Shown: piece by piece, positions 49,501-50,957 of the stretch | Numbering within the stretch: the first letter of the stretch is position 1 | Layout: each line of letters begins with the position of its first letter | Virus record (IMG/VR): IMGVR_UViG_3300017751_000023 | Location: 1-54,622 of that record | DNA length: 54,622 nucleotides | Origin: a virus | Reading direction: 5' to 3' (one strand) | Translations under genes and position numbers: made by a program | The notes under the pieces: generated by a model | The model's database searches: none | Told to the model about the DNA's origin: nothing | What the model saw: only the letters and a program-made list of their open reading frames with translations

Positions 49501-49532
49501 CTTCCCCTTTAATTTAATTTTTTGTTACTAGT

Positions 49533-49615
49533 ATACTTAAAGTATTCTTAAAGTAACTTTAAATATTAACTAAAGGAGTAGGAGACTAAGGTTAACTTTA
49601 AGATACTTTAAGTAT
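49533..49615 (-). promoter_or_regulatory. Operator cluster of the late promoter
   Basis: Odd palindromes ATACTTAAAGTAT (49533-49545) and ATACTTTAAGTAT (49603-49615) flank the region; the second touches the -10 box. Between them lie TAAGGTTAACTTTAAG (49587-49602), the complement of the 16-mer at 1123-1138, and further ACTTTAA copies. The clustering over the start site suggests cooperative binding of a regulator. Confidence 0.65.
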
Positions 49616-49643
49616 ATTATAATGTATACATAATGTATGTCAA
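49616..49643 (-). promoter_or_regulatory. Near-consensus late promoter
   Basis: On the minus strand TTGACA (49643-49638), a 16-base spacer and TATAAT (49621-49616). Both hexamers are perfect. It drives the leftward structural unit, about 37 kb, beginning with the gene at 49500. Confidence 0.88.
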
Positions 49644-50555
49644 TAGAAATCTTCCCTTTGTAGGGAAATAAATACAGATTGTGACATAAATGCTTAACAT
49701 TATCCATCAGGCTACTGATTCGTTAATAGTAGCACAAAGTTTAATCACAGTCAATACAAAATGTTTAAACTTTAGGCAATACTTTCGTTGCACCCCAGTC
49801 CTCCCCCTCCTCTGGAGTAATAATTAACAGAACTTTGTGTAAAAACTGTGCAAATGCTTAATATTTAGGCAGAATAATTGCTGCTGCTTAAAATATACGC
49901 TGCTGTATACAGTGGTTAACAGCCTAAAATTCCCCTCTCTGGCAGAGTACATACATATATACGTATGGGGGTGGGGTGGCACATGCCCTGCCCTGTAAAA
50001 CAGCACTAGTTATAATGGAAAAAAATAAAATTTATACATTCTCTGCGTATTTCCCTTATTTTATTGACGATTATACACAATAATACATTATCGAATGATG
50101 GACCAGCCCTGTAAATCATTGATTTTATTGAGTTTTTCATCGAAATTAAAAAAAGATGTACAAAAATGAAAAAAAAGCTTGTACTTTGTTTCGATATGTG
50201 CAGAATGATAATTGTTGCTACGGCAAGTCTTCAAATCTTAGAACATCGGGTTCGAATGATTTTACAGATTTAAAACTTGAGATACGGCAAGCCTAAATGA
50301 CTAAAATTTTTTACTTGACGATTTAACGATTTTTTGATTAACTGATTTTGACGATTACATAGACCGAACCATAGTAGTTCGCAGAGTGCGTGGGAGACCT
50401 CCAACATTACGAGTGTGTTGGCTGTAGGGAAATAAAATGCCACATGCTAGGGTCGGTTTGAGATTGAGAGGGCTAATCTTATTTCTCTTTAGATGGTGGT
50501 AGTAATATGGCTGAGATGCAAATACTCCACGGCAAATAAAATACCTTGCAAATGT
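49644..50555. other. Gene-free AT-rich region between divergent units
   Basis: No convincing gene is seen. Contents: hairpin TTCCCT-4-AGGGAA (near 49652-49667); the 14-mer TGTAGGGAAATAAA at 49659-49672 and 50423-50436; a G-run patch near 49966-49980; TATAC-6-GTATA near 49902; TATAAT without a -35 box (50011-50016); TTGACGATT three times (50064, 50315, 50348); TCGAATGAT at 50091 and 50252; TACGGCAAG twice (near 50219 and 50283); a tRNA T-loop-like GGGTTCGAAT (50248-50257). It plausibly holds the replication origin, attachment site and early promoter, none proven. Confidence 0.6.
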
Positions 50556-50660
50556 AGGGTTGTTTAAGACGAGCCAACTCGTTTATGAGTAATCATAGGA
50601 CAACCCTTATTTTGCCAGTAGTTTATACCATAGGTAGTACCTCACAATTTATGCGAGGTA
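50556..50660 (+). promoter_or_regulatory. Branched RNA leader with sequestered Shine-Dalgarno
   Basis: AGGGTTGT (50556-50563) pairs with ACAACCCT (50600-50607). Inside it are two hairpins: AGACGAG-type stem with CCAA loop (50567-50584) and ATGA-GTAA-TCAT (50585-50596), the latter with a GNRA tetraloop. Downstream, TACCTC (50638-50643) pairs with GAGGTA (50655-50660), covering the ribosome binding site of the gene at 50668. TACCT can alternatively pair with the AGGT just before it (50632-50635). Confidence 0.6.
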
Positions 50661-50667
50661 TTTAATT

Positions 50668-50901
50668 ATGAAAAACAATATATTCAACATTATCGGTTTT
50701 AGAAAATCACAGAAGATGGTATCGAATGATATCGCTAGAAATATGATTACAAATTTAGTTAGTAAGGATAAGAGTTATAAGTACATCTACGGTAAAAATG
50801 GTGAGATGCGTGGTTGGGTTATCGGCTTCATGCGACAAGGAAGCAAAACGCAACCATGGGGAGACAACAACATTAAATCTACTTTTGGTTTTCAAAAGTA
50901 A
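50668..50901 (+). CDS. First early gene of the rightward unit
   Basis: 77 residues. MKNNIFNIIGFRKSQKMVSN, then YKYIYGKNGEMRGWVIGFMR and QPWGDNNIKSTFGFQK. Basic and Gly-rich, with no clear motif. Its ribosome binding site lies in the 3' arm of a hairpin and a larger folded leader precedes it, so expression is likely controlled at translation. A host-takeover or regulatory role is plausible from position only. Confidence 0.65.
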   Translation: MKNNIFNIIGFRKSQKMVSNDIARNMITNLVSKDKSYKYIYGKNGEMRGWVIGFMRQGSKTQPWGDNNIKSTFGFQK

Positions 50902-50918
50902 TTGACAACAATCTTTCG

Positions 50919-50957
50919 AGGTGCTACCTATCGTATAAACTAGAGGAGTGATACGAT
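50919..50957 (+). promoter_or_regulatory. Palindrome and translational-operator hairpin
   Basis: AGGTGCTACCT (50919-50929) matches the AGGTNNNACCT form at 50632-50642. ATCGTAT (50930-50936) and ATACGAT (50951-50957) form a perfect 7-bp stem whose 14-base loop holds GAGGAG, and the ATG follows immediately at 50958. A TTGACA at 50902-50907 with a weak -10 (TACCTA at 50925-50930, 17-base spacer) may give a promoter overlapped by the palindrome. Confidence 0.6.

Follow-up and report, generated by a model that had tools for sequence, protein, structure and literature searches.

The phage genome analyzed here (the window) is the full length of a 54,622-base virus record. Its minus-strand late genes reach to about 49,500 and its plus-strand early genes begin at 50,668, with about 1.1 kb between them that is free of genes. 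This locus raises the question whether the part of the gene-free region adjoining the early genes specifies a structured RNA, as suggested in a preliminary description of the sequence, and if so, what kind of RNA it is and how it might act. The structural proteins of the window match those of HMO-2011-type phages that infect hosts of the Roseobacter group and SAR116, and their homology with the structural proteins of the CRP phages and HMO-2011 meets the criterion for membership in this group. The early region of the window phage also includes a tyrosine integrase gene (1490-2575). Just before the late genes (49528-49620), there are repeated AAGTATACTTAAAGTA-type inverted repeats that produce spurious microRNA matches in Rfam and adjoin a perfect TTGACA-16-TATAAT on the minus strand. 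The early side of the gene-free region is framed by the following features:

50314-50343, plus strand: promoter-like site read from the sequence (CTTGACG, with the -35-like element at 50315-50320, then 17 nt, then TTAACT at 50338-50343)
50620-50643, plus strand: left copy of a 24-bp inverted repeat that flanks the first early gene
50668-50901, plus strand: first early gene (77 aa, no known family)
50918-50941, minus strand: right copy of the 24-bp inverted repeat, overlapping a promoter-like TTGACA-17-TACCTA

The -10 match of the promoter-like sites is weak (mostly 3/6), and relatives of the first gene are confined to the window's own clade of five contigs. The 24-bp inverted repeat has two matches in the window and none in 100 shuffles; both copies contain AGGTNSTACCT palindromes and are conserved in two other representatives of the clade, L004 and L005. 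This repeat may be an operator pair or a long-range mRNA helix.

A structured 5' leader of about 310 nt (50355-50660) separates the promoter-like site from the first early gene. It has the following elements:

50361-50459, plus strand: 5' domain closed by helix P1 (50361-50367 and 50369-50376 with 50445-50459)
50390-50443, plus strand: P3, GTGG (50390-50393) with CCAC (50440-50443)
50401-50421, plus strand: P4, hairpin CCAACA/TGTTGG, longer in L004 (CCAATACACT/AGTGTTGG)
50460-50488, plus strand: P5, peripheral hairpin; the L005 sequence differs, with pairing still possible
50496-50530, plus strand: P6, hairpin GTGG..GTA / TAC..CCAC, with GCA/TGC in L004 and L005; one compensatory pair
50548-50615, plus strand: conserved core module (P7, P8 and three-way junction), a predicted fold shared by the relatives
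50548-50552 / 50611-50615, plus strand: P7, outer helix, with GGCAA (50531-50535) as an alternative 5' partner
50557-50565 / 50598-50606, plus strand: P8, enclosing the three-way junction
50566-50583, plus strand: P8a, hairpin GACGAG-CCAA-CTCGTT, preceded by TTAA (CTAA in relatives)
50584-50597, plus strand: P8b, hairpin TATGA-GTAA-TCATA, with a GNRA loop in the window and usually CTTGA in relatives
50638-50660, plus strand: hairpin TACCTC/GAGGTA that pairs the Shine-Dalgarno sequence of the first gene; window clade only

The pairings that had been read from the letters alone are present. These include CCAACA/TGTTGG (50401-50406 with 50416-50421) around a 9-nt loop, and the long-range pairing of TAGACCGA (50360-50367) with TCGGTTTG (50453-50460), which extends to 50376/50445 to give a helix of 15 pairs with support at least equal to that of a local GAAC/GTTC hairpin. 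The two enclosed hairpins (P8a and P8b) are found as described, and so is the stem over the Shine-Dalgarno sequence (50638-50643 with 50655-50660), for which ATAGGTA and the distant inverted repeat are other possible partners; the stem enclosing the two hairpins, given previously as 8 bp, consists of 9 pairs. The fold of 50340-50690 has a z-score of -2.6 relative to dinucleotide shuffles (1 of 100 equally stable), and that of 50487-50690 a z-score of -4.0 (none of 200 as stable).

The five contigs of the window clade carry three distinct versions of the leader: that of the window (the same as L002 and L003), that of L004, and that of L005 (the same as L006). These versions are at least 80% alike across the leader, whereas most of the adjoining gene-free DNA is not. 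Lack of compensatory changes in homologues had been named in the preliminary description as an observation that would refute a structured RNA; the homologues do show double changes in the stems, in a total of 11 base pairs. Eight of the 32 pairs of the 3' domain changed on both sides (0/500 shuffles), as did 3 of the 27 pairs of the 5' domain (19/500 shuffles), all three of them among the 15 pairs of P1. About 98% of the alignment cells pair in the three versions, the pairing is lost when the partners are slid, and the alifold z-score for the whole leader is -6.7 (0/200 column shuffles). Because P3 and the Shine-Dalgarno hairpin are invariant in the three variants, they are not subject to a covariation test.

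Exact and gapped DNA patterns derived from the window sequence retrieved the window clade only, plus chance matches, and a search via the neighboring phrog_7595 gene yielded 80 loci lacking the RNA, of which only about seven reach the leader region. A model of the 3' domain (R1) run with default filters missed the distant members, which were found by an unfiltered search of phage leaders; the two best hits were in the gene-free leaders of two phage isolates, CRP-9 of RCA roseobacter strain FZCC0023 (E 0.012) and CRP-207 of strain FZCC0040 (E 0.06), in both cases directly before the first early gene. These two leaders share the arrangement YTAA-stem-GCCAAC-stem, the second hairpin and the closing helix. 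In CRP-207, the leader is followed by a short unannotated reading frame (MFNVSTKKVGGIRFLKLGKLCLSFC...; L115:4487-4587), the DNA of which resembles the gp02-gp03 stretch of CRP-9 (record 836-936, in L109).

The search pattern CTAANNNNRGCCAACYNNNNYTTN{7,13}ATRGG, which fixed only apparently unpaired letters and the closing positions of P8a, returned 81 viral stretches against 21 in a larger bacterial collection. The P8a arms, whose letters the pattern left open, are complementary in nearly all viral matches but in no more than one or two of the bacterial matches. Three viral matches (L117, L123 and L163) were excluded as due to chance, leaving 78 stretches with the fold. The family-model scores are at most 21.5 bits for the bacterial matches and at least 41 for the phage members. 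The family model (R3) hits the window at 50540-50623 with 41 bits; since the window is among the training sequences of R3, the independent test of homology is R1, which was built from the window clade only and locates the motif site in all 16 of the other loci and gives two further hits over 78 kb. The window also meets the definition of the core family, namely YTAA, 5-bp stem, GCCAAC, stem, second hairpin, and ATRGG inside P8.

Some of the apparent conservation is a consequence of the selection procedure. For most members, the search pattern itself prescribed GCCAAC, CTAA and ATRGG; the invariance of these motifs (81 of 81 sequences for GCCAAC) is therefore partly built in, and a paired P8a was required for membership. 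No such bias applies to P7, P8 and P8b, or to the finding that almost all hits of the pattern have complementary P8a arms, whose letters it did not specify. In the R3 realignment of 67 distinct sequences, 96.9% of the cells are standard-paired, double changes occur in 21 of the 23 pairs, double-change cells number 413 compared to 107 in shuffles, and the covariation is 0.781 against 0.217 shuffled (0/500). This alignment was fitted to the structure; an unfitted MAFFT alignment gives 87.9% paired cells, 321 double-change cells and a covariation of 0.592 (0/500 shuffles). The cells represent sequences rather than independent events; nonetheless, as many as six standard pair types occur at a single pair. 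In the family model, all 13 pairs of P8 show double changes, as do 3 of the 4 pairs of P8b, and the P8a arms include up to 6 pair types; for P7, the native partners pair better than swapped ones (-9.47 versus -7.57, sd 0.26). Among the core cells, G.U outnumbers A.C 147 to 5, and therefore it is the plus-strand RNA that is under selection rather than a DNA cruciform. These sequence comparisons show that the core (P7, P8 and a three-way junction that holds the invariant G-CCAA-C hairpin) represents a conserved family of RNAs found in HMO-2011-type marine phages.

No Rfam 15 family reaches the gathering cut-off for the window, sensitive Rfam scans of L004 and L005 gave no match, and scans of the other phage leaders detected only a tRNA elsewhere, in agreement with the initial impression that the element belongs to no recognized class. 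The covariance models of group I and group II introns, RNase P and tmRNA did not match either. A stretch resembling a TPP riboswitch (GGCTGAGA), spotted by eye, is unsupported by cmscan. Our searches of the open-access literature brought up no description of this RNA; of the papers that deal with HMO-2011-type genomes, two are silent on noncoding or intergenic features. On this basis, we regard the core as a previously undescribed RNA family within a known kind, the structured leader RNAs of phages.

The module is single-copy in all 23 carriers that were searched whole and lies on the sense strand just before their first early gene. Eleven of these 23, including both isolates and all seven IMG/VR carriers of at least 50 kb, match the window major capsid protein at 54-81% identity, and the carriers possess at least two DNA polymerase types. 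Of 68 relatives, 43 have CTTGAC about 250 nt upstream of the core, where shuffles would give 2.5; the distance in the window is 250 nt. A divergent minus-strand gene is common to 43 of 59 loci. The first genes themselves fall into 28 unrelated clusters among 76 carriers. The distance from CTAA to the first start codon is 72-143 nt (median 81), with a second mode at 112-143 nt, and is kept although the upstream part differs in type.

We did not find the module in HMO-2011, CRP-1, -2, -3, -13, -212, -235, -345, -603, -738 and MW202701, where a divergent copy could be missed; altogether, it is absent from 10 of the 12 HMO-2011-type isolates and from the one uncultured genome searched. Most of the searched isolates lack it, and therefore it is not essential to the HMO-2011-type group and marks a part of that group. 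The model of the 5' domain (R2) has no match outside the window clade, and other clades bear other 5' modules upstream, for one of which the alifold z-score is -6.3 in 14 sequences; by these comparisons, the 5' domains upstream of the core are exchanged between clades.

CRP-345 (L013, L107) and CRP-1 (L112, L111) share a different structured leader before gp01, with a GTTACAC...GTGTAAC hairpin and an upstream domain with apparently covarying stems. This leader resembles the core family in being a structured region at the same place but has no match to the family model, and the RNA is apparently unrelated. In addition, TTTGTGATCACAAA palindromes, possibly operators, recur in the gene-free regions of CRP-1, CRP-2, CRP-13 and CRP-345 (L112, L114, L116 and L013).

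How the leader acts can only be inferred, transcription included, in the absence of transcription, probing or reporter data. The region would be the 5' untranslated leader of the early operon, folding as a modular, roughly 310-nt RNA that acts in cis on the expression of whichever early gene follows. The core could dock a host or phage factor, or simply insulate and protect the 5' end, and would present the Shine-Dalgarno region beside P7 for translation. The predicted exposure of the Shine-Dalgarno sequence exceeds that of the shuffled leader in 52 of 66 carriers (mean 0.51 versus 0.38), with controls that were shuffled for composition only. Indifference to gene identity, the kept distance to the start codon and the exposed Shine-Dalgarno sequence together favor a cis role at translation initiation or in protection of the mRNA 5' end, possibly with a bound factor as part of this role. 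For a cis-acting early-operon leader that operates at translation initiation, we would claim an even chance. What speaks against it is the second distance mode, the lack of the module in most isolates and the hidden Shine-Dalgarno sequence of the window clade. There, opposite to the other carriers, an extra hairpin closes this sequence (predicted unpaired probability 0.00 in the window and L004, 0.01 in L005), which could make the translation step switchable.

Indifference to the downstream genes also fits a put-like processive antitermination, in which the nascent leader would bind RNA polymerase and permit read-through of pauses and terminators whatever genes follow; this is the main rival, which we consider rather unlikely but cannot exclude. 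The module is promoter-proximal on the early transcript and present once per operon, and its unpaired nucleotides are invariant while its stems covary; in phage HK022, putR lies some 270 nt downstream of its start site (PMC9378689), a position comparable to that in the leader. However, antitermination does not need a fixed distance to the start codon, and terminator-like sites of the early region barely exceed those in shuffles and are mostly on the other strand. The HK022 put RNAs (putL and putR) are likewise structured RNAs close to the beginning of an early phage transcript that are indifferent to the following genes, but they are about 70 nt long, consist of two stem-loops and lie near the early promoter (PMC9378689), a criterion that the window fold does not meet: the module of about 70-105 nt has a three-way junction, sits inside a longer leader and is tied to the start codon, and there is no evidence of antitermination.

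A ligand- or protein-sensing switch, whether riboswitch-like or an autoregulatory leader, that gates translation of the early operon appears less probable still. Its 5' leader position, the multi-domain, aptamer-like architecture with exchangeable 5' domains and, in the window clade, the sequestered Shine-Dalgarno sequence with its alternative partners are all reminiscent of such regulators, but no ligand is known, no terminator was found in the leader and the downstream genes share no common pathway. Association with genes of one pathway is usual for riboswitches, if not strictly defining, and is not met here. The preliminary description of the region as a regulatory, riboswitch-like leader thus stands in its first part, with a structured leader of regulatory type that shows compensatory changes and has the conserved CTTGAC on one side and the first early gene on the other; the term 'riboswitch-like' loses support, since the gene behind the leader varies (28 clusters) and the Shine-Dalgarno sequence is predicted to be exposed in most relatives. 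A metabolite riboswitch is less likely, and ligand sensing has not been shown.

It is more doubtful yet that processing of the early mRNA releases the leader as a trans-acting noncoding RNA that binds a host target such as RNA polymerase, the ribosome or a nuclease. The structure is extensive, and large ornate phage RNAs of unknown function, GOLLD and ROOL, do exist (PMC12286853), but the leader contains no terminator that we could find, and in all tested carriers, the module lies close against the start of the first gene. GOLLD is often longer than 800 nt, and both RNAs often occur near tRNA islands (PMC12286853), unlike this leader of about 310 nt with its early-operon position and no Rfam match. 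A DNA element (operator array, origin or attachment site) with palindromes mimicking RNA stems is scarcely credible and was rejected for the core (50548-50615) on the G.U/A.C count, which along with the hairpins with conserved loops indicates strand-specific RNA selection, the integrase gene and the inverted repeat overlapping a promoter-like site notwithstanding (the inverted repeat alone is not covered by this argument).

We propose, only tentatively, that the new RNA class is a universal plug-in leader, used by phages of an abundant group in the ocean, in which a constant three-way-junction core binds a single host machine (the ribosome or RNA polymerase) and, together with exchangeable 5' domains, drives a hypervariable first early gene. 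HMO-2011-type phages are reported (PMC9038755) to be dominant and widespread in the ocean, and we found nothing in the literature on how they start their infection programme. A conserved, covarying RNA ahead of early genes that change from one phage to the next suggests that early expression relies on a common mechanism, and the two cultured carriers, CRP-9 and CRP-207, make the leader RNA directly testable.
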